From contig MU278381.1 of assembly GCA_022385755.1 (NCBI GenBank), positions 190,991 through 221,424 on the forward strand: a DNA stretch of 30,434 nt. The letters run 5' to 3'. The first letter of the stretch is position 1, and each line of letters begins with the position of its first letter. A model generated the notes under the pieces. It did no database searches and was not told the DNA's origin. It saw only the letters and a list, made by a program, of their open reading frames with translations. This document shows, in pieces, positions 937-25,015 of this stretch. The translations under genes and the position numbers were made by a program. This stretch comes from Trametopsis cervina. Taxonomy: Eukaryota > Basidiomycota > Agaricomycetes > Polyporales > Irpicaceae.

Positions 937-996
937 GTCTTGGTAGCTTAATGGTAGTGCTGTCTATTTTACTACTGAAAGCCCTGGGTTCAATCC
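937..996 (+). other. tRNA-like sequence, left part, split by a transposon
   Basis: An A-box-like stretch (TAGCTTAATGG, 944-954) and a B-box (GGTTCAATCC, 987-996) are spaced as in a tRNA gene. The sequence is cut at the end of the B box by the 997-6518 element and resumes at 6519 with GTTCAATCC. The acceptor and T stems do not pair convincingly, so it is a tRNA-derived or tRNA-like sequence rather than a working tRNA gene. It may still act as an internal Pol III promoter. Confidence 0.5.
988..996. repeat. Left 9-bp target site duplication (GTTCAATCC)
   Basis: GTTCAATCC directly abuts the left terminal inverted repeat. It is repeated exactly at 6519-6527 directly after the right one. The duplicated bases are almost the whole B box of a tRNA-like sequence. 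Confidence 0.88.
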
Positions 997-1153
997 TAGT
1001 CTCGCGTGGCCAGCCTCTCACGACATCCCAATTTGGGAACCCTGTCGTGAGAGTCTGGTGTTGTCCCAACAAGGTAGGCGGGGTCAGGCCTTACGCCTCC
1101 GCGCGACTTGGCGCTAAAGAATTTCGACTCTCGCGCGGTCGACGACCTCGCTC
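997..1153 (+). repeat. Left terminal inverted repeat (157 bp)
   Basis: Pairs with 6362-6518. It contains a perfect inverted repeat with 11-bp arms (CTCTCACGACA, 1014-1024, and TGTCGTGAGAG, 1042-1052). Between them lies a second palindrome, TCCCAATTTGGGA. This could be a protein-binding site or a cruciform near the transposon end. The TIR is probably also the promoter region of the helicase gene. Confidence 0.92.
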
Positions 1154-1280
1154 CGTCTGCTCTCCTGCTCGGCTTTCCACCTCACACCATGTTCTAAACT
1201 TACTCAGTTGTTGTATTATCTGCTGCAATAAACATTCATTACCCATTTCTGCATCTTCGCCTGTCTGGACATTGACATCC

Positions 1281-3327
1281 ATGTCTGAAAGCCGCTCACC
1301 AGGACCCTCAGAGCCACCCGCACCTGTATGGCCTCCAAGGCGAAAGCCTTACGGCGAGCGTGCTGCGGCACTTATGACGAGGCCGCCAGACACTCCTGAT
1401 GGTCCCCCTTGCCCCCCTTTGCCTGTGGACCCGTCGAGGGACGTGCCTCTTCCGGCCACACCCATTCGCTCTTTGGAGCCACAGTCGCCACTGAACGACA
1501 TAGGCAACCGGTCAAAGCGAAAGAGGTACCAGAATGGGTGGGAAGCAACCCCTAAGCCGCCTTCGTTCTCCCCTTATGCACTAACAGCTTCTACTCGGAA
1601 ACGTCTCAAGTCCATGAACACTGCGCTTCCTGAGGTTAGACCAATCTCCGCCCATCCTGCTCTCACAAAACAGCAGTGGACTACGTTGGCCAACACAGCG
1701 TCCTGGCTACCCGAAGGCAGTACACTCCGGGACTTTCAGATGGAGTGCAGCAACGTCGTTGTCAGTCAGCTCGGAGATGTTGTAGTGATTGCACCCACAG
1801 GCGCAGGCAAGTCGCTATTGTGGTGCCTACCATTGCTTGTTATCAAGAACGGAATTTCTTTGGTTATCACCCCATACACAAGCCTTGGACTCGAGGGTGA
1901 ACAAAGGTACGTCTTCAGTCGCCCAGACACGGCCACACCATGCTGATGTTATTCTTTGAGATAGAACGAATGCGCTAGGATTGCGCGCGGTTTTTATTCA
2001 TGCAAACCAGTGCAGTGACGAAATCATGACCGACGTAGCGCAAGGAGAATATCGCGTGGTGTTCGTGTGCGCAGAGATGCTCGAAAGCCCCATTTTTGCC
2101 ACAATCCTTCATGCAAAGCGGTTTCAAGCACGACTCACGGCAATATACATCGATGAGGCTCATTTAGTGCATGAATCTCTCGACTGGCGCACTTCCTACT
2201 CACGGCTACACCAGCTTCGCCGCATAGTCAGCAGCTCAATACCGTTAATCCCCATATCCGCCACATTGCCCTCTGCCTATCGTGACTCCCTGTGTCAACA
2301 TGCCGGCTTACAGAAAGGTCATCGGCTCATTAATCTAGGCAACTTCCGTCCTGAGCTAATGACCGCGGTGGTTTCTCTGCAACACGATGCGTCAAGTTTC
2401 CTTGATCTAGCTTTCGTTGTACCAGAGAGTGCGCGCGCTGAAGACATCGCCAAAACCATCATATACTGCGACAATGTGGAGACACTCACAAAGATGTTCT
2501 GGTGGTTCACCTCCCGACTGCGTGCACTCAATCTGTCGACATCTGTCGTTGAAATTCTTCATGCCGGTCTTTCTAGCAGACATGAAGAGACTGCGCTGGA
2601 GGATTTCCGCATGGGACATGCAAGGATCTTGCTCGGGTCGGAGAAGATTGGTGCAGGGCTCAATTTCCCCAATGTCACACGGGTCATTGTCTATCTTGTT
2701 CAGCCTGATCTTACGTTGGCAAAATTCGAACAGCGCAAGGGCCGTGCAGGACGTACTGAGGGAACTTCGGGAATAGGGATACTGATGGTTCAGGCAGATC
2801 TCTTTGATGGCGAAGTGTCCGATGCTGTGATAGCATCGTTGGACCCGGGCATTTGGGAACTTATAAGTACAAGAGACCGTTGTCTTGACGAAGTCCTCGA
2901 TCAACACCTTGAGAATTTGGCACAACAACCTATCCAGGGCTGGCGCTGCTGTTGTAACTGCTACCCTTCGCTCTATCCTGCACACACTCTGCTGTGGGTT
3001 ATGGTTGACCCCAAGTCCGTCACAAGCACTAGCGGCTTGTCTGCCGAAGAAGTCGGCAATATCACAAAGGATCTTAAGGAGTGGCGGACAGAGATGTGGA
3101 AGATACGGTGGCGGGAGATGTTTCTTGGGTTCGGGCCTGAGGATCTTATCAGTGATGAGGATCTAGAGGCAGTTGCAAGACGTATCACAGTGATCAAATC
3201 GCTAGACGATTTGCGGCCTGTTGTACACATCGCATACTGGACAGAGCTGGCATCGTCCTTATTAGTCGCGGTGAGTGATGCAGCCACGAAGCTTCCGCAA
3301 GCTCTTGAGCCGGAGCTCAATGCTTAG
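1281..3327 (+). CDS. RecQ-like superfamily 2 DNA helicase of the transposon
   Basis: Two exons, 1281-1906 and 1965-3327, give 662 residues. The 58-nt intron has donor GTACGT, branch-like TGCTGATG and acceptor ATAG, phase 2. The ATG at 1281 is the only in-frame ATG inside the element before the helicase core; the frame upstream runs into the TIR. The N-terminus (1-120) is proline- and arginine-rich and probably disordered. Helicase motifs follow in order: APTGAGKS (Walker A, 171-178), VITPYTSL (Ia), DEAH (272-275), SAT (307-309), TIIYCDN (IV), GAGLNFP (V) and QRKGRAGR (VI, 465-472), as in RecQ. The C-terminal part has a short Cys cluster (WRCCCNC) and a Trp-rich tail, with no clear RQC or HRDC domain. 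The expected activity is ATP-driven DNA unwinding. Its presence inside the TIRs implies a role in mobility. An alternative 3' splice would replace the last 18 residues (see findings). Confidence 0.85.
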
Positions 3328-3492
3328 GCAAGCTCTGATAACCAAAATACCTCGGTTTGTACTCTTCTTTATATACAGCCAAGGTCTATTCATTGATATC
3401 TTCTTATTATATAGGAAGTGGTTCCGAAAAAAACTCGAAAGCGTAAAGACCCAGCATTATCATTTGGTGAAGGAGTGATATCTTTTGAATAA
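3271..3492 (+). other. Possible alternative last intron and exon of the helicase gene
   Basis: A strong donor, GTGAGT, lies at 3271 in the last helicase codons. An acceptor, TATATAG, ends at 3414. Splicing is phase 0 and in frame with 3415-3492, which encodes 25 residues with a basic PKKTRKRK stretch resembling a nuclear localisation signal. The resulting protein would be 669 residues. The 144-nt intron is longer than the others in the window, so the unspliced stop at 3325-3327 remains equally plausible. Confidence 0.4.
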
Positions 3493-3507
3493 CAACATAT
3501 AATATCC

Positions 3508-6309
3508 CTATTCTATGTTGTCATCACTAAGTTCGTTGAGTGTCGGGACATGGACTTGAGAGGTTATATCATCATCTACATCATCTGTCGTGAAGTCAAC
3601 TTCGACTGCATCAGCTGCGTCCTCGAGCTCTTGCGCCAGCTCTATCATATCTGCATCTGCACTACTATCGTTGGCCAAGGATCCATTTGCATGCCGTGAG
3701 CGCAGTCGCAGCTGATGTCGCAGTATATGCTTGGCATGACCACCTGTAGGCCCCGATAGCCGGCGAAGACCAGTATGAAAGAGAGCCGTGACAGTTTGCT
3801 TGGATATTTTATCGCGGGCGAAATGGAAGACATGAGCTTGAACGAGATGTCCAACAAGGATCTCAACGTCCTTGTCTTGTCGAACCTCGGAATGACGCTG
3901 CCAAAGATTCGCCAATCCAAGATCACCGCAGATTTGTTCCATGAGATGATGTGTCTGACCAAGCGCAGGAGTAATTCGCTCTAACAGCTCGGGAGAGGCG
4001 TTAACCCCATGAGCTCGTCCTTTGATGCTTTTATTGAGGTGCTCGACATCAAGATCACCTTCCTTGAATCCGTCCGGCCTTCCAGTAGTATTGACAAGCA
4101 TGCCTGCAAGCATTACTTGAGCTGTGTCTTCAGGCCAATCTCCTAAGACGTTATGCAGCAGCTCCATGCATTCATTGCTGTAGTTATAGCTTCCACCGCC
4201 ATAAAACATTGCCACCCAGTACTTCAGCATCCGTAACATTCGAGTTGGATGTCCATACTTGATAGCATGGCGCATTTCCCGCACAGTCATAAGACTATGC
4301 ATCAACGTGAGTGCGTGACCAGATACAGTTTCGCCACGGACTGATTTGATGCCCGTATGTTCGAGAGCACCTGACGTCGGAAGAATATATCCCTCAGCGA
4401 CAGCCACACAGAGGTGGTTGAAGTCTTCGAGCGAAAAGTCTTTGGTCGCTTCAGCAATTCTATCGCGGTTTCCGACATTGAGATGGGCAATGACGGCAGC
4501 AAGCACCAAAGAACGCAGCACAACGTCGAGGAATCGGAGCCATGCATAGAAGTCAACCTTCTTCAAATTGAGGCTGTCACGGTTAGGAAGAAGATCACGG
4601 AGTACTGATAGGCTGACTTCGTCATGGTTTGATGTGTCCCCGAATGCATTACGAGCAATGTTGATGACCATGTTGAGGCATTGATGCATCATTCCGCTTG
4701 TTAGAAGGATGCTCGAGAGATGGTCGGCACGATCAGAGGAACGGTCCAGAGCACGCTGATCTTGAGCTGCACGATCACGAGCAGTAGTGAGTCGGTCACC
4801 AAGGACACCAACCATGCATTGTTCAAATTGTGCCTTTGGTATACGAAGTACATCGAGTAGATAGTGTTCGAGGACAACCATGTTTCCTCGGGTTGAGCCC
4901 TGCTCCTGATCGAACGTCGGGAGCCAATGACGCTCAGTACGTTGAGCCGTGATAGCATGAGGATCATGGAAGCTGGGCAGAGCAGAACGAAACTGCGCAA
5001 AGCTCTTGATGTCGCTCGTAAGCATGTACTTGACATGTAGAATGGCCGCATCACGAAATGAAGTGTGATCGCTTGGCATTGGAAGGATGTTCTGCAGAGA
5101 CTCTTGCTGAGGAGTCCGGTGCCGTGCACCAAATTGCGCGTCGAGTCGAGTCGTGCTCATGAGATGGTTTGCAGTGAGTTCTTGGTAATGCTCGGAGATG
5201 TTCAAAATGACCAGCATTGCCGAAACTTGATCGTGCTGCACAGTTCCATGCGTCGCAGAGGTTTCCCATGCACGAGACCGCCAGTTGAAGTTGTCGTACG
5301 CGAGCATCTTGATCTTCGAACGGTCAGCCGCAGTGTGTCGAGCTAACCGAACTGCATCTTGACTGAGTCGAAGAATAGCACGGCCTTGGTATTCATATGA
5401 AGCACAAAACCCGAGGCGGTTCAAAATCTGCACCAGCCGCTTTGATGCACCAGCCTGCCAGAGCATGAGGACATTGACGGCCGCGTGATAGTTTGTAAGC
5501 CGGCTACGTAGATTCAGAACCATTGAGGTAAGTGCGGCACGTCCCTGTTCAAGTATAAGCTCAGACTATGAACATATATGCGTTGGACATACATCATCAG
5601 GGTTTCTACTCCCTGTAGAAGTCGATGGGCCAGATTTTCCAATGGCGGCAATGAGGATCTGTTGCAAGTAAGGAGTAACCAGAGCATAGCGTTGCGAAAG
5701 CCCCGGGAAGGTAAAGTCATGTACGAGCGAGACCGAAACTTTGTCCACTGGCACCCTCAATTGTTCTGCTTGGGCCGCGAACGGGCCCGCAGATGCCCTG
5801 TCGGTGAGATAGCTGCATTCTCGAGCACATTCCTCAGCTGCTCTATCCACCACCCAGTCAACAATAGCTGGCCCCCATTCACCCCGACGCCTCGAGTCCC
5901 ACCAGAGTTCCATCATCCTCACTGCTCCTCCGTCCTCCATGAAAGTGCCCGTGAAGTTCCAGATATCTTTGCTTTCAGAAAGAAAACAGGTCTCAAGGAA
6001 CTTACGCAGCGAGAACTTGTTGAAGGTCTGGCGCATATACTGCAATACCCTCCGGGCCTTTTCTTCATCAGACAATCGCTCCGCCCGTCGAACCGGCATG
6101 CGGAAGTCAAGATCTTCGCCGTCATCTGATGGTTCATGATCAGAGTAAAGCAGGACGGCTGCCGAGGGTATATCGGGGAGTGAGGGGGTAGGGGATGTTC
6201 GCGGTCCCTCAGTATTAGTGTACTCGGCCTCACTTTCTTCACAGTCGGACGAGGCCAGTTTTGCATAGTAAAGAGCGGCATTATTGCGTGTGTGATGTAA
6301 ACGAGCCAT
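3508..6309 (-). CDS. DUF6589-type protein, candidate transposase
   Basis: Two exons on the minus strand, 6309-5593 and 5544-3508, give 917 residues. The 48-nt intron (donor GTATGT, acceptor ACAG) is phase 0. It joins RNPDD to GRAALTSMVLNLRS, which fits the family pattern I recognise. The first 80 residues are acidic and Ser/Pro-rich. Family landmarks are YDNFN (D near 323), a GDRLTTARD block (D near 489) followed about 35 residues later by GMMHQCLNM, FYGGGSYNYSNE, and DLDVEHLN (E near 740). The last 60 residues are strongly acidic. D, D and E in these blocks would suit an RNase H-like DDE nuclease, but this is inference; DUF6589 has no function known to me. It faces the helicase tail to tail. 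The start is 52 bp inside the right TIR, which probably holds its promoter. No frameshift or stop interrupts it. Confidence 0.85.
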
Positions 6310-6361
6310 TAGATTGAATTATGGATAGATACAGCAAAGAACACGGGCATAAACGAGAGGC

Positions 6362-6518
6362 GAGCGAGGTCGTCGACCGCGCGAGAGTCGAAATTCTTTA
6401 GCGCCGAGTCGCGCGGGGGCGTAAGGCCTGACCCCGCCTACCTTGTTGGGACAACACCAGACTCTCATGACAGGGTTCCCAAATTGGGATGTCGTGAGAG
6501 GCTGGCCACGCGAGACTA
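6362..6518 (-). repeat. Right terminal inverted repeat (157 bp)
   Basis: Reverse complement of 997-1153 with three substitutions. One of them (A for G in the second palindrome arm, TGTCATGAGAG read on the minus strand) breaks a single pair of the internal hairpin. The TIR ends GAGACTA at 6518. Confidence 0.92.
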
Positions 6519-6527
6519 GTTCAATCC
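6519..6527. repeat. Right 9-bp target site duplication (GTTCAATCC)
   Basis: An exact copy of 988-996, directly outside the right TIR. It is followed by CTGCTGGTGGCA, the right remainder of the split tRNA-like sequence. Confidence 0.88.
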
Positions 6528-7797
6528 CTGCTGGTGGCAAATTTGCTTCCATTGAGTGTTAGCAGTATTATGATCTTAACTTTTGAGTAACTGAGCGTCT
6601 AAAATTACTCCTCGGTTAGTTGGCAATCATGCTTACTTCCAGTGCTGTGATTGGCTTACAGCTAATGTTCCACATGGTGCACTTTTGCTGAACCACATGG
6701 TGCTTAAATGGATCTGGGGATACTAGATTAAATCTACATGAATACTAGCATGGCTCAGTGGTGTAGTGGTTTAGGCATGTGTTTTTTTCTGTGTTGCTTC
6801 GGGTTCAATTCCAGTGGTGGTGATTTTTTTTTCTTGACCAGATTCTGGTTGTTTTCGCTAAAACCAGCTGTAGAGCCTTCAATAAAATTTGGAAAAATCT
6901 GAAAAAATCTTCAGAAAATCAGGAAGACCTGGAAACCCCTGCTCACACGATCACTTTTCCATGATCATGTGATTGCGGAAATTGCGTTCTTTTGCATCGA
7001 AGGCCCCAATCGCCAAGTTTTCGGCTATGCCTGATAAATGCAACGAGAAATCAATGTACCAGCCTTTGGTAAGAGTCTCTGTCTTTGTTGTGCTTAGTAG
7101 TCATCGAAGCTCATGAACAAATGCACAAAATGCTTTCCACAGAGTTTAATAAAATGTGGAAAAATAGACTAAAATAAGAACACATTATGTAATACATGTG
7201 AGCATATGTCTGAGATGTTACATGGCTGTTATAACCTGAGTATTAAGTGAAAGGCATACATGTAAAGGTGTAGACAGACCGTGGGAGTTTACCTGCCCAA
7301 AATGGAAGGTGTGTGCTTATCTAATCTAATCCTCCCCCCATGCACGACATTGCTGTAGCTGCACTATTAAGCTCAGAAAACACAAAATACTCAAAAAAAT
7401 CAACAATGCAAGTTATCAAGGCACATAAAACAGCACTGAGGCATGCAATACACTTCAAATGAGGCGGTTCTTTGCTAGAAGTGTTTTATGAGTTAAACCA
7501 AAGCCCATCAAGGTTGGGCACTTAGTTCCCAAAAAAGGGCATATGTGTTTCTCACTTTCTGCTCTTAGTTCTGCATGATTTCCTTGATAAAGATGACCAC
7601 AGTGTAGCCTAATGTCATGAATACATGTGAATATACAAATAGCTGGGAAGCTTTGGGATGGGGAGGCTATAAAAATTGAGGAAGTTTTGAAGTCTCAAAT
7701 AAACGCCTAACTACACAAAATGGTAATGGGTCAATAACTGCTACTAATGCCATCAAAAGCATACAATATGATAACAAAAGATGCTTATAAAAGTGTA
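6528..7797 (-). mobile_element. Helitron-like copy L0, continuation after the transposon
   Basis: This is the family body in minus orientation. It carries a tRNA-like sequence (6752-6820), the CAGCTGTAGAGCC/AATAAAAT block (6866-6890) and the AGCTCAGAAAACACAAAATA module (about 7370). It ends near AAAAGTGTA (7797), about 90 bp short of the family 5' terminus, where copy L1 begins. Stretch 6528-6740 is less like the other copies. No gene is seen. Confidence 0.65.
6752..6820 (+). other. tRNA-like sequence in copy L0
   Basis: GGCTCAGTGGTGTAGTGG resembles an A-box region. GGTTCAATTCC (6802-6812) is a good B box. The anticodon region is T-rich and the stems are poor, so this is not a functional tRNA. 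It lies in the same relative place and orientation as the tRNA-like sequences of the other copies. Confidence 0.5.
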
Positions 7798-9159: not shown

Positions 9160-9345
9160 AAGTCCGGAGTATTATCAAGTAAGTAGCACTTTGTTATAGA
9201 GTAAGTACTTATTTGTATTGAGTAAGTAGGAGTTGTTATCAAGTAAGTAGGAGCTGTTACCAAGTAAGTAACATATGTTATTGAGTAAGTGAGAGATGTT
9301 ATATAGTAAGTGATAGTTGTTACCAAATAAGTAATGCTTACTTAC
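9160..9345 (-). repeat. 21-bp-period minisatellite of copy L2
   Basis: Units close to GTTATCAAGTAAGTAGGAGC on the plus strand, the reverse complement of the arrays at 605 and 24690. The period is a multiple of three, so spurious Tyr/Leu/Thr-rich ORFs run through it. Confidence 0.8.
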
Positions 9346-11044: not shown

Positions 11045-11400
11045 ATCTGTTAATGAGTAAGTACTACTGTATTGCTGGATAAACAAAAGTTGTTACCAGG
11101 TAAGTAAAGGTTTGTTATCAAGTAAATGGCATTTATTAACATGCAAAGTAAGTTTGTTATTGAGTAAGTAGAGGTATATTATGAAGTAAGTAGAAGTTAT
11201 TACTAAGTAAGTAGAAGTTGTGATCAAGTAAGTAGAGACTGTTATCAAGTGAACAGAAGTTGTTATCAAGTAAGGAGATATTGTTACCGAGTAAGTAATA
11301 GTTGTTACCGAGTAAGTAATAGTTGTTACCAAGTAGATAGAATTTGTTACAAATAAGTAAATGGAGTAAGTAACATTTGTTACTGGATAAGTAATGCTTA
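11045..11400 (-). repeat. 21-bp-period minisatellite of copy L1
   Basis: Same array as 24690-25015 in inverted orientation, with one extra unit: the spurious translation is seven residues longer, exactly 21 bp. Confidence 0.82.
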
Positions 11401-16681: not shown

Positions 16682-19600
16682 TCATTGCAAGCCCATGAGC
16701 TTGCGCAGATGTTCCACCTTAACACCAGCAACAGCCTTGGTGAGCAAGTCAGCAGGCATATCTGCTGTGGGGCAGTAAACTGGTCGAATCTGCCCACTCT
16801 CCACAGTTTCCTTCAGCCAATACAGCTTCAGGTCCATGTGCTTCACACGAGAGAACTTCTCTGGATTCTTGGCAACAGAAATCGCAGAGTTGTTGTCCAT
16901 GTAGAGGGTAGAGGCATCAGAACCGAGTTTGTAGCCAAACTCGGTCAACAGATTGCGCATCCACATCATCTCCTTGCCAGCATCCACAGCAGCAATGTAC
17001 TCAGCCTCTGTAGTAGACTGAGCAACTACTGACTGAAGTTTGCTGCTCCAATCGACCGCTCCAGTCCCAATGCACACCACATAGGCTCCAGTCGAATGAC
17101 GAGTGTCTGGATCCATCCCATAGTCTGCATCTGAGAAAGTCAAGAAGAGCTCTGAAGTCGACTGGGCTGGACCATATGTCAACTTCAAATCCATGGTGCC
17201 CTTCAGGTATCTGAACAGATGCTTCACAGCGGCCCAATGAGGGAGACCAGGGTTGGAGTTGAAGCGAGCGAGTTTAGAGACAGTGTAGGCGATGTCAGGA
17301 CGAGTGGAGGTGGCCAGGTACATGAGAGAACCAACAGCATTGATGTAGGGGATGTCAGACATGGCAGCATGCGCCTCAGGAGTGGTAGGGCTGTCCTTAG
17401 TAGTCAGATGCGTGTTGGGGAGCATGGGAGTGTGCACAGTTGAACAGTCAGAGAAACCATAGGTCTCAAGCATGTCCACAATGTACTGGCGTTGGGAAAG
17501 CGAAATGGAGCAATTAGGACGGTCTCTGATGATCTCTATGCCCAGTAGCCATGAGGTAGGGCCTAGATCTCGCAACTTGAAGTGCTGGGAGAGCTCCTGG
17601 ACAATGCGGTCGGATTCTGAAGGAGAAGTGGAGGCAATGGTGATATCATCGGTGTAGACAGGCATGATGATGCGCACAGTATCCCTGGAGAGGATAAAGA
17701 GGGATGCATCTGACTTGATGCGCACAAAGCCCATAGTAGCAAGGATCTTGTGCAGAGTGATTCCCCAGACTCGACTAGCCTGCTTCAGACCATAGATGGA
17801 GCGCTGCAGACGAAGGACATCACCAGGAGAGCCAAAGTGGAAACCCTCTGGTTGCTGCATATAGATCTCCTCCTCGAGTTCCCCATTGATAAAGGCATGA
17901 GAGATGTCCACAGAGCGAAGATCCAGGTCCTCCAAGGCAGCCAGAGCAAGCACAGTCCGGATAGAGGCCATGCGCACAGTAGGAGCAAATGTCTCAAAGT
18001 AGTCAAATCCTGGACGCTGACTGAAGCCCTTGGCCACAAGACGAGCCTTCAACCGCTCCAGAGAGCCATCTGGATTGTGCTTCATGGCAAAGACCCAACG
18101 ACAAGGAATAGCCTTTCTACCAGGAGGTAGAGGACATGGAGACCAAGTGTGGTTGTGCAAGTGGGCATCAATCTCGACTTGAGCTGCTGTCTGCCACTGT
18201 GCACCCTCAGGACGCCTCAAAGCGGCCTTGAGAGTGGCTGGAACCGAAGCAGAGTCCTTTGCACTAGCTTTGCCTGCATACTCATCATCCTCGGAGTCAT
18301 CCTCAGAGTCGGAAGCATGAATAGCATCGTCTTCTGGCTCAGACTTGACAGGAGGAGATGGTCTAACCTTCCACCCCTCTCCAGGAGGGTTTCTGGTTCG
18401 AGGCTCGCGTCTGTGTGCAAGTGGGACGTCTGGGATGGCAGCAGGAGGTGCAGGAGGTGCAGGAGGTCTAGCAGCTCGTCTAGAATGAGCAGGATCGGGC
18501 TGAGGAGCATCAGGAGGTGGGACAGGTGCAAGCTGTGGTTCAGGAGCTGCAACAGCAGGTGCAGGTGGTGGAGGTACAGCCTGTGGTGGGTCAGGGAGCT
18601 CGTCTTGGACATAAGCAGCGACTGCTGGGACAGCAGGAGCGTCTGGCTCCCCCTCAAGATGAGCTTCTGGCACAGGTGGCAGTGGAGGAGGTGCATCATC
18701 GCCATCCCAGGAGTGCAGGGATGGAGTAGAGCCAAGAAGGGGAGGGTGGGAGCGATGAATAGGCAAAGAAGACCAGTTCTTCAGGCCAGGGAAGTAGCGT
18801 TCATCGAAAACAGCACGTTCAGAGATGACAGTGCGCTTTGTAACAGGGTTGTAGAATTTCCAGCCCTTGTAGTCAGGAGGATAGCCCAGAAAGATGCACT
18901 TCTCCATATGGGATCCCAGCTGTCCTCGCTTATCCTTCTGCACATGCACATAGGCCAGACATTCCCAGATGCGAAGACGAGAGACATCTGGTTTCTGGTT
19001 GAGCCAGGCCTCATAGGGAGTAGTGTGGGGCAGGGCAGAGGTGGGAGTGCGGTTCAGGATGTGTACAAGCGAGGCAAGAGCATCTCCCCAGAATTGTGAA
19101 GGCAAACCAGCTTCATGGAGCATGGCAGTGACACCTTCAGCACAAACTCGGTTGAATCGCTCTGCAACACCATTCTGCTGAGGCCTGTTGCGCACAGCAT
19201 GACGTCTAGCCACCCCTTCTTGCACACAGAAGTCCTCCATGGCCTTAGACATGTATTCTCCGCCTTTGTCGTCCTGCAGTCCACCCAACTTGACTCCAAG
19301 CAGTGTCTCAGCATATGCCTTGAACTGCTTAAAGCAAGCGAACAAGTCACTCTTCTGCTTCATAGGCATAACCACCTTGTACCTCGTTGCATCATCAATC
19401 CAGGAGCACCAATAGCGATAGCCAGAGTGGCTTCGCACTGGGAGAGGTCCATGGACGTCAGAATGAACGAGTTCTAGGGGTCTGGTAGCCCTGGAATGAG
19501 AAGAGGGGAAAGGAGCTGCATTGAGCTTGCCTGCCAGGCATGGCTCACAGATAGGATCTGCTGAAGCGGACGACTCTAGCTTCAAACCAGTCACCAGGCC

Positions 19601-20848
19601 CTCTGAAACGAGTTTCTTCAGGCCAGAGTGGTGAAAATGCGCAAGACGACGATGCCAGAGGGAGTAATCAAGGGGTAGTGTGGAAGAGGCAGCGGTGGCA
19701 GAGTGGGCGGACTCTGGGCTAGGTATGACTGTACCAGCCAGGTAGGCGGTGTTGGAGGCATCTATAGGTGCACAGAAGAGTTTCTGACCATCAAGGATAA
19801 AATCCATCGAGTCTGAGGCAATAGTGACATTGAAGCGATGGTGACAAGTGAGATACAGGACTGAAAGCAGGTTGGACCCCAGGTCAGGGACATGAAGTAC
19901 CCTAGAGAACTCCACATGGCGCAGATACTCCCCCTCAACCTCTGGAGCGAAGACTACAGACCCAACTCCAGCAGAATAGACGATGGTGTTGTTGGCAAGG
20001 CGAATGGGGACAGCCAGAGGCTTGTAGTTTCGAAGCCAATGCTTGTGAGGCGTCATATGAGAAGTGGCGCCTGTATCTGCAGTCCAGAATAGGTCAGAGG
20101 GTGTCTGAGGCGAAGGAGAGGGGGGATTGGAACGAAGACTCGCTTTTCCAGCGAACTCAGGACCACCAGAGGGATTGGAAACAGCAGAAGTGGCCGGAGT
20201 AACCTCCTGAGCAGCATTGGCCTTTCCCCCTCGCTTCCTGGTGTTGTTCCTGTGCTCCTCCTGCCTCTGAAGGGCATCCTTGGTTGCCTGAGTCTTAGCC
20301 GCACCGGAGCGGTGGCAGGAGTCGATAGAGTGGCCCCGGAGACCACAGAATGAGCAAAGGAGGGCAGTGACAGCGAGCACAGAGGTGCTGGAGGGGGTAG
20401 AAGTCGAGTTAGGGGACTTCCTGAGCTGTTCCTCGTTGATAAAGGCAGCCTGGAGCTTGACCTTCGACATCTGGTCTAGGAGTTGAAGGGATGAGGCGAA
20501 GGACTGGTACTCTGCAGGCAGAGCTCGAATCATAGTCATACAGACGAGTTCTTCATCCAAATCCTTGATGGAGAAGTCCTTGGGGCGAAGATTCTTGATC
20601 TGGACCATAGCAGCATCAATCCTGGTCATGGGAGCGGACAGGGTGTCTTCAGAACCCATCTGGATCGAGAAGAAGGACTCCCAGGCGTTGAAACGAGCTC
20701 CAGGAACCTTTTGGAGGTGTACTGACTCCAGCTTCTTCCAGATCTCCACAGAATCATCCTCAATTCCATCAAGATGTGTCTTCTGCTCATCTGTGATAGC
20801 AAGATACAGCTCACCAGCCGCTCTGAGCGCTCTGTCTCTCCATAGCCG
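16682..20848 (-). pseudogene. Ty1/Copia gag-pol polyprotein, gag N-terminus lost
   Basis: The frame is open for 1388 codons from 20848 to the stop at 16682, but it has no ATG at a sensible gag start. Numbered from the GTG at 20749: gag capsid region to about 120; zinc knuckle CX2CX4HX4C at 132-145; protease DTG at 225-227; integrase H366/H371 with C401/C404; catalytic D431, D494 and E530 (35 residues between the last two); a proline-rich linker of about 680-790; reverse transcriptase with D948 and YTDD at 1032-1035 (YVDD is more usual); then RNase H with FSDADY, STTEAEY and MDNNSA. The Copia order PR-IN-RT-RH is intact. Upstream of 20848 the gag sequence continues in another frame (start of WKLVKGDERLPV near 20915), showing a small indel near 20845-20851. 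The first ~50 gag residues are missing. Enzymes look intact, but the element cannot be autonomous. Confidence 0.88.
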
Positions 20849-24689: not shown

Positions 24690-25015
24690 ATTACTTATCC
24701 AGTAACAAATGTTACTTACTCCATTTACTTATTTGTAACAAATTCTATCTACTTGGTAACAGCTATTACTTATTCGATAACAATGTCTACTTACTTGATA
24801 ACAACTTCTGTTTACTTGATAACAGTCTCTACTTACTTGATAACAACTTCTACTTACTTAGTAATAACTTCTACTTTCTTCATAATACACCTCTACTTAC
24901 TCAATAACAAACTTACTTTGCATGTTAACAAATGCTACTTACTTGATAACAAACCTTTACTTACCCGGTAACAAGTTTTGTTTATCCAGTAATACAGTAG
25001 TACTTACTCATTAAC
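24690..25015 (+). repeat. 21-bp-period minisatellite of copy L5
   Basis: Units such as TACTTACTTGATAACAACTT plus one base, imperfect, around 14 of them. One unit fewer than in L1. Confidence 0.82.

Follow-up and report, generated by a model that had tools for sequence, protein, structure and literature searches.

The window analysed here, a 30,434-nucleotide stretch of contig MU278381.1 of the wood-rotting polypore Trametopsis cervina (Basidiomycota; assembly GCA_022385755.1, forward strand, positions 190,991 to 221,424), contains an element of 5,522 base pairs (bp) at window positions 997..6518, with ends confirmed by alignment of its two arms. Between terminal inverted repeats (TIRs) it carries two genes, one for a RecQ-like helicase and one for a protein of the DUF6589 family (PF20231). 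The features, in window coordinates, are as follows.

988..996, no strand: left copy of the target-site duplication, GTTCAATCC (exact repeat; paralogous empty sites)
997..1153, plus strand: left TIR, 157 bp, tip TAGTCTCG (arm alignment)
1281..1906, plus strand: RecQ-like helicase gene, exon 1 (open reading frame and Pfam; intron inferred)
1965..3327, plus strand: RecQ-like helicase gene, exon 2 (open reading frame and Pfam; intron inferred)
3508..5544, minus strand (read 5544-3508): DUF6589 gene, exon 2, with three candidate catalytic residues (open reading frame and Pfam)
5593..6309, minus strand (read 6309-5593): DUF6589 gene, exon 1 (open reading frame; gene model P0002 spans the same junction)
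6362..6518, minus strand: right TIR, 157 bp (arm alignment)
6519..6527, no strand: right copy of the target-site duplication, GTTCAATCC (exact repeat)

The TIR arms are identical at 154 of 157 positions (mismatches at TIR positions 51, 102, and 113), and there are no N characters inside the element. When we scanned the window for TAGNCNC...GNGNCTA pairs more than 200 bp apart and tested them for flanking duplications of 8-10 bp, the only pair reported with such a duplication was this element. In all six examined paralogues of the flanking repeat the site is uninterrupted, GTTCAATCC running directly into CTGC or CTAC. Because three of these copies, all on C45, are mutually identical over 2.8 kb, the six empty-site loci represent four distinct sequences; one paralogue (L008) has a deletion immediately past the site. 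An earlier note on this stretch had described a closed unit with near-identical TIRs and an exact 9-bp duplication, and had named empty sites as support for mobility; both points are borne out. That two host genes came to lie between repeats by chance or segmental duplication would be in keeping with the repeat-rich flanks, but we find this scarcely credible given the exact duplication at both tips, the empty sites in six of six paralogues, and three dispersed assembled copies with different flanks (see below).

The two genes are convergent and open, each is spliced once, and 180 bp separate them, much as the earlier note had read them; the introns are inferred, and P0002 spans the DUF6589 junction. 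The helicase product of 662 amino acids has the Pfam domains DEAD and Helicase_C (hmmscan), and among solved structures it comes closest to WRN (E = 8.2e-25) and to 1oyw, an "ATP-dependent DNA helicase" of RecQ type (E = 7e-21). The DUF6589 product has 917 amino acids and matches PF20231 with E = 9.9e-87 (hmmscan). Part of it is identical to the public T. cervina gene model P0002, which starts 70 residues downstream of our predicted start and crosses the same intron. All other listed open frames overlap either gene, or an end of the element, in a different reading frame.

Several features make the DUF6589 protein most likely the transposase; the earlier note had spoken of a candidate transposase. 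Its AlphaFold model resembles DDE transposases, and three acidic residues, D253, D419, and E627 (numbered on P0002), are nearly invariant among DUF6589 homologues; the assignment follows from this predicted fold and the conserved triad together. In place of the C/DxxH motif that PMC9587614 gives for KolobokH, hAT, P, MuDR, and Dada between the second D and the last E, there is a glycine three residues ahead of an invariant histidine (G453 in 84 of 85 sequences, H456 in 85 of 85), a G(2)H motif whose positional equivalence with C/D(2)H is a judgement. The single DxxH of P0002 in this interval (543-546) lies outside the conserved columns. An hmmscan of the protein over Pfam, with E values as high as 1 allowed, returned nothing except PF20231, and the A1 profile has no match among PDB sequences at the same limit. 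In the BFVD fold search nothing fell below 1e-3, the top match being a Pandoravirus hAT-like protein (E = 0.003). None of the candidate stretches for PF20231 relatives among viral contigs (56 in one search, 28 in another) was confirmed.

These data also bear on a divergent Mutator-like (MuDR/MULE) element with long TIRs, 9-bp duplications, and a helicase as cargo. Long TIRs are a MuDR trait. Duplications of 9 bp are reported, in the passages of PMC3627910 cited here, for fungal elements assigned to MuDR. However, the same hmmscan found no MULE domain in the DUF6589 protein, which leaves room for very distant kinship, and the motif is G(2)H rather than C/D(2)H. Since the helicase recurs in three families (see below), it is not casual cargo, and a MuDR origin appears very improbable.

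Searches for PF20231 relatives, each limited to scoring about the 8,000 best candidates by shared words, yielded 99 and 128 relatives from two seeds of the window type (120 of the 128 listed) and 68 from a seed of the C5/C22 type. Most named entries among those listed read "hypothetical protein", none is named Academ, and their organisms, among them Irpex lacteus and Fomitopsis serialis, are ones that we take to be mushroom-forming fungi and their kin. A literature search for DUF6589 did not find the name in any of the papers searched. One relative, the Ganoderma boninense DUF6589 protein P0141, bears the UniRef name "Pre-mRNA-splicing ATP-dependent RNA helicase PRP28"; only PF20231 is listed for it, and the label is perhaps a misnaming.

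The pairing of the two genes is repeated elsewhere in the genome. PF20231 matches occur at no fewer than six loci, C34 (the window), C5, C22, C19, C16, and C10, with C3 as a seventh, and the helicase query matches at no fewer than seven places outside the window, both counts being lower bounds. Three of these seven (C5, C22, and C19) lie inside DUF6589 elements. A helicase match is thereby present in all four assembled elements (window, C5, C22, C19), and the three further ones belong to two other families, have different flanks, and carry their own 9-bp duplications. Element tips read TAG[TAG]CTCG. The claim that both genes belong to one mobile element is right, the pairing being found again in three other assembled insertions. 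The expectation of several dispersed copies held only in part: of the window family itself the assembly contains a single complete copy and, on C3, a degraded relative, and the support comes from the two other families.

The C22 and C19 elements are 99.8-100% identical over their aligned parts (L034 with L042; L043 with L035). Their true tips, TAGTCTCG...CGAGACTA, lie outside an inner 44-bp repeat, and their duplications are CACCTGCAT and GTCGCATCA. Such near-identity at different sites with different duplications suggests recent movement. Because of N runs in the corresponding stretch (625 N in C19, 10 N in C22), the exact lengths of these two elements are not fixed. The C19 run cuts the helicase match, and we rejected a partial loss of the helicase there, the gap being the N run itself. 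The C5 element represents a third family, with divergent genes and the tips TAGACTCG/TAGGCTCG and CCAAGGACC. The first 95 bp of both C5-family ends recur at the contig ends C25 (L061) and C4 (L065). Since both end pieces are flanked by the same 9-bp GTCATGACA, a second full C5-family copy, lost in assembly, probably joins C25 and C4, which would amount to a scaffold join.

We also found five short elements, which we interpret from their sequence as nonautonomous derivatives of the same transposon group.

C6: 213 bp, L059:4881-5093, duplication ATATTTTGG
C1: 186 bp, L058:4730-4915, duplication CTCACCCCC, one tip without its first base
C22b: 189 bp, L066:33-221, duplication GCTGATCCA
C24: 201 bp, L067:34-234, duplication ATCTTCCGC
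C32: 199 bp, L079:31-229, duplication TGCATTCTG

The tip pattern TAGTCTCGN{2,6}CCAG occurs 34 times in the genome, compared with 14 times for a reversed control. Fourteen tip-pattern stretches were examined: three contain new derivatives, one is the known C1 copy, and ten, of which only a few hundred bases each were read, have no duplication-flanked pair.

Exact 9-bp duplications flank all ten recognised insertions, the ends having been set independently of the duplication in five (window, C22, C19, C25/C4, and C1), while in the other five the duplication helped to find them. The lengths tested were 8-10 bp for the large elements and 9 bp only for the short ones. Kolobok transposons duplicate TTAA; the ten duplications here, GTTCAATCC and nine others, vary in sequence and none is TTAA. 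KolobokH, described in 2022 (PMC9587614), is a lineage of fungal Kolobok elements that carry a RecQ helicase, and the cited part of that paper mentions one rhodophyte Kolobok with a RecQ helicase on the complementary strand. The presence of such a helicase in a DDE transposon of a fungus could point in this direction. Here, however, the helicase is a separate, oppositely oriented gene rather than lying downstream of the transposase domain, and both the motif and the duplications differ; we give an identity with KolobokH next to no credence. The host repeat at the insertion site (window 940-1000 and 6519-6545) holds a tRNA-like B-box sequence, GGTTCAATCC. ARAGORN found no tRNA in the window or in six loci, and Rfam gave no matches in the window and L004. 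Targeting of insertion to tRNA-like B boxes was considered and rejected, as the other nine duplications have no common motif by eye.

The ends of the gene-bearing elements have a structure of their own. Each of the three families with genes has, at both ends (six in all), a palindrome that starts 10-14 nucleotides from the tip and runs from CCAG to CTGG; in the left TIR of the window element, CCAG begins at nucleotide 14 and CTGG ends at nucleotide 62. The top stem scores of the six ends are 13, 10, 13, 17, 13, and 13, while 229 control windows (134 within elements and 95 outside) score 10 or less; the right end of the window element merely equals the best control. Folding z scores are -5.3, -3.4, -2.7, -6.0, -2.1, and -1.4, compared with a lowest value of -1.73 among 69 interior windows, the right end of C5 falling inside the control range. 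The left and right stems are near-identical in the window element; in C22 and C5 the letters differ between the ends and the stems still pair. With 12 pairs taken per end, 94.4% of the cells in the six sets are paired; variation affects both sides in seven pairs and a single side in none. Compensated cells number 18, against 5.9 in shuffles, a result that describes compensation and is no proof of selection because the arms were picked for pairing.

The short derivatives differ in this respect: their ten ends have top stems of 5-9 (control range up to 10), and the four ends tested have folding z scores of -0.9 to 0.1. At one C1 end, 8 bp of the C22-left stem survive. We therefore rejected the palindrome as a strict requirement for mobility; since short derivatives lack a comparable one, elements can evidently be moved in trans without it, and any function it has is hypothetical. 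It is conceivable, though we regard it as speculative and rather doubtful, that recognition or processing of the ends depends in part on their structure and that, while the ends are being processed, the RecQ-like helicase acts on foldbacks in the form of cruciforms or hairpins. To our knowledge, such a division of labour between transposase and helicase is not known from other DDE transposons. The transposon literature cited here, as far as the passages used extend, contains no description of terminal palindromes, though no search was aimed at palindromes.

Taken together, we consider the element probably a DNA transposon of DDE type that is autonomous and belongs with AcademH, the helicase-bearing Academ elements, and most likely a new family or member of this known transposon type. 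The earlier note had called the combination unusual and possibly a distinct superfamily, and knew of no published description. The parts of the literature cited here say otherwise: "RecQ Helicase in Academ" was in print by 2013 (PMC3627910), and fungal Academ copies are reported to carry DEAD/DEAH and recQ-family domains and to be "frequently annotated as host genes" (2019, PMC6416283). Duplications are given as 9 or 10 bp for AcademH and 3 or 4 bp for AcademX, a difference tied to helicase versus nuclease (2023, PMC10045372, quoting a 2020 paper), and AcademH is described as low-copy in Basidiomycota, Ascomycota, and Mucoromycota (2024, PMC10799480). What is possibly new is DUF6589 as the AcademH transposase, together with the palindromic ends.

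Several results weigh against this interpretation. Foldseek of the DUF6589 model against the PDB gave nothing below 1e-3 (best 0.011), and the VIA root-mean-square deviation of the fold comparison is large. Four helicase matches (C33, C22:161534, C24, and C17) have no linked DUF6589 gene. At the DUF6589 loci C16, C10, and C3, ends were not found, and no helicase match was seen in the stretches read, of which the C16 stretch contains a long N run; the tblastn test used there is weak, having also missed the C22 helicase, and the genome-wide helicase search lists none at these loci either. The adjacency of RecQ-like and DUF6589 genes that the earlier note suggested examining is thus seen at three of the seven helicase places outside the window, with these four places and three DUF6589 loci unpaired. 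Finally, the element is assigned to the superfamily by its gene content and the length of its duplication rather than by comparison with the sequence of an Academ transposase.

This last point, which makes homology to Academ transposases an assumption, also favours a view in which elements with DUF6589 and a helicase form a DDE superfamily of their own and acquired the RecQ helicase independently of Academ. PF20231 as the only Pfam match and the conserved G(2)H motif point the same way. On the other side, the RecQ helicase, the 9-bp duplication, and the occurrence in Basidiomycota all fit the published statements on Academ and AcademH, and we judge a separate superfamily unlikely.

For an AcademH-type element, we propose that the DUF6589 transposase would bind both ends through the tip TAGTCTCG and the adjoining CCAG...CTGG palindrome. 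The triad D253/D419/E627, going by predicted fold and conservation, would free the 3' ends, which would then be joined to target strands at a 9-bp stagger, and host repair of the staggered target would produce the duplication. More tentatively, the RecQ-like helicase may serve as an accessory enzyme that remodels or unwinds the ends, the strand-transfer complex, or a repair intermediate. Both a cut-and-paste and a replicative pathway are compatible with this proposal. PF20231 is a family without an assigned function. If DUF6589 is the transposase of a helicase-bearing transposon, many annotations would be corrected and some RecQ-like genes of mushrooms explained; if the palindromes hold in other species, they would open a direct way to ask why a DNA transposon should require a RecQ helicase of its own.

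Some further observations concern the unpaired helicase on C33 and the surroundings of the element. Close to the contig start of C33, RecQ-like helicase frames occupy L041:408-2784 on the minus strand and end, by eye, in a zinc-knuckle-like CxxCxxxxH; no DUF6589 gene lies near them in the 6 kb read. Elsewhere in the window, a 21-bp unit forms arrays, in one orientation or the other, at 601-754, 9172-9334, 11087-11359, and 24726-24964, within or near a large repeat with relatives on C16, C7, C9, C29, and C45. An open frame of 1355 amino acids at 16682-20749 (minus strand) resembles, by eye, a Copia-type retrotransposon polyprotein.

Compared with known systems, the predicted DUF6589 structure, in our reading, resembles the transposases of hAT (Hermes) and of the P element in that a large helical insertion interrupts the RNase H-like core ahead of the last acidic residue, and differs from them in that no PDB chain matches the A1 profile in sequence at E up to 1. 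The nuclease of AcademX is an XPG nuclease. Provided that our element is correctly labelled AcademH, AcademX would share its superfamily; it differs, by the published description, in having shorter duplications and a nuclease in place of the helicase. KolobokH, too, is a DDE transposon of fungi that encodes a RecQ helicase; as the cited part of PMC9587614 has it, the helicase there lies downstream of the transposase domain and the motif is C/DxxH, whereas here the helicase is a separate convergent gene. AcademH, compared by published description only, shares with our element the RecQ/DEAD-type helicase, a duplication of matching length (9 bp here, 9 or 10 bp in AcademH), the low copy number, and the occurrence in Basidiomycota.
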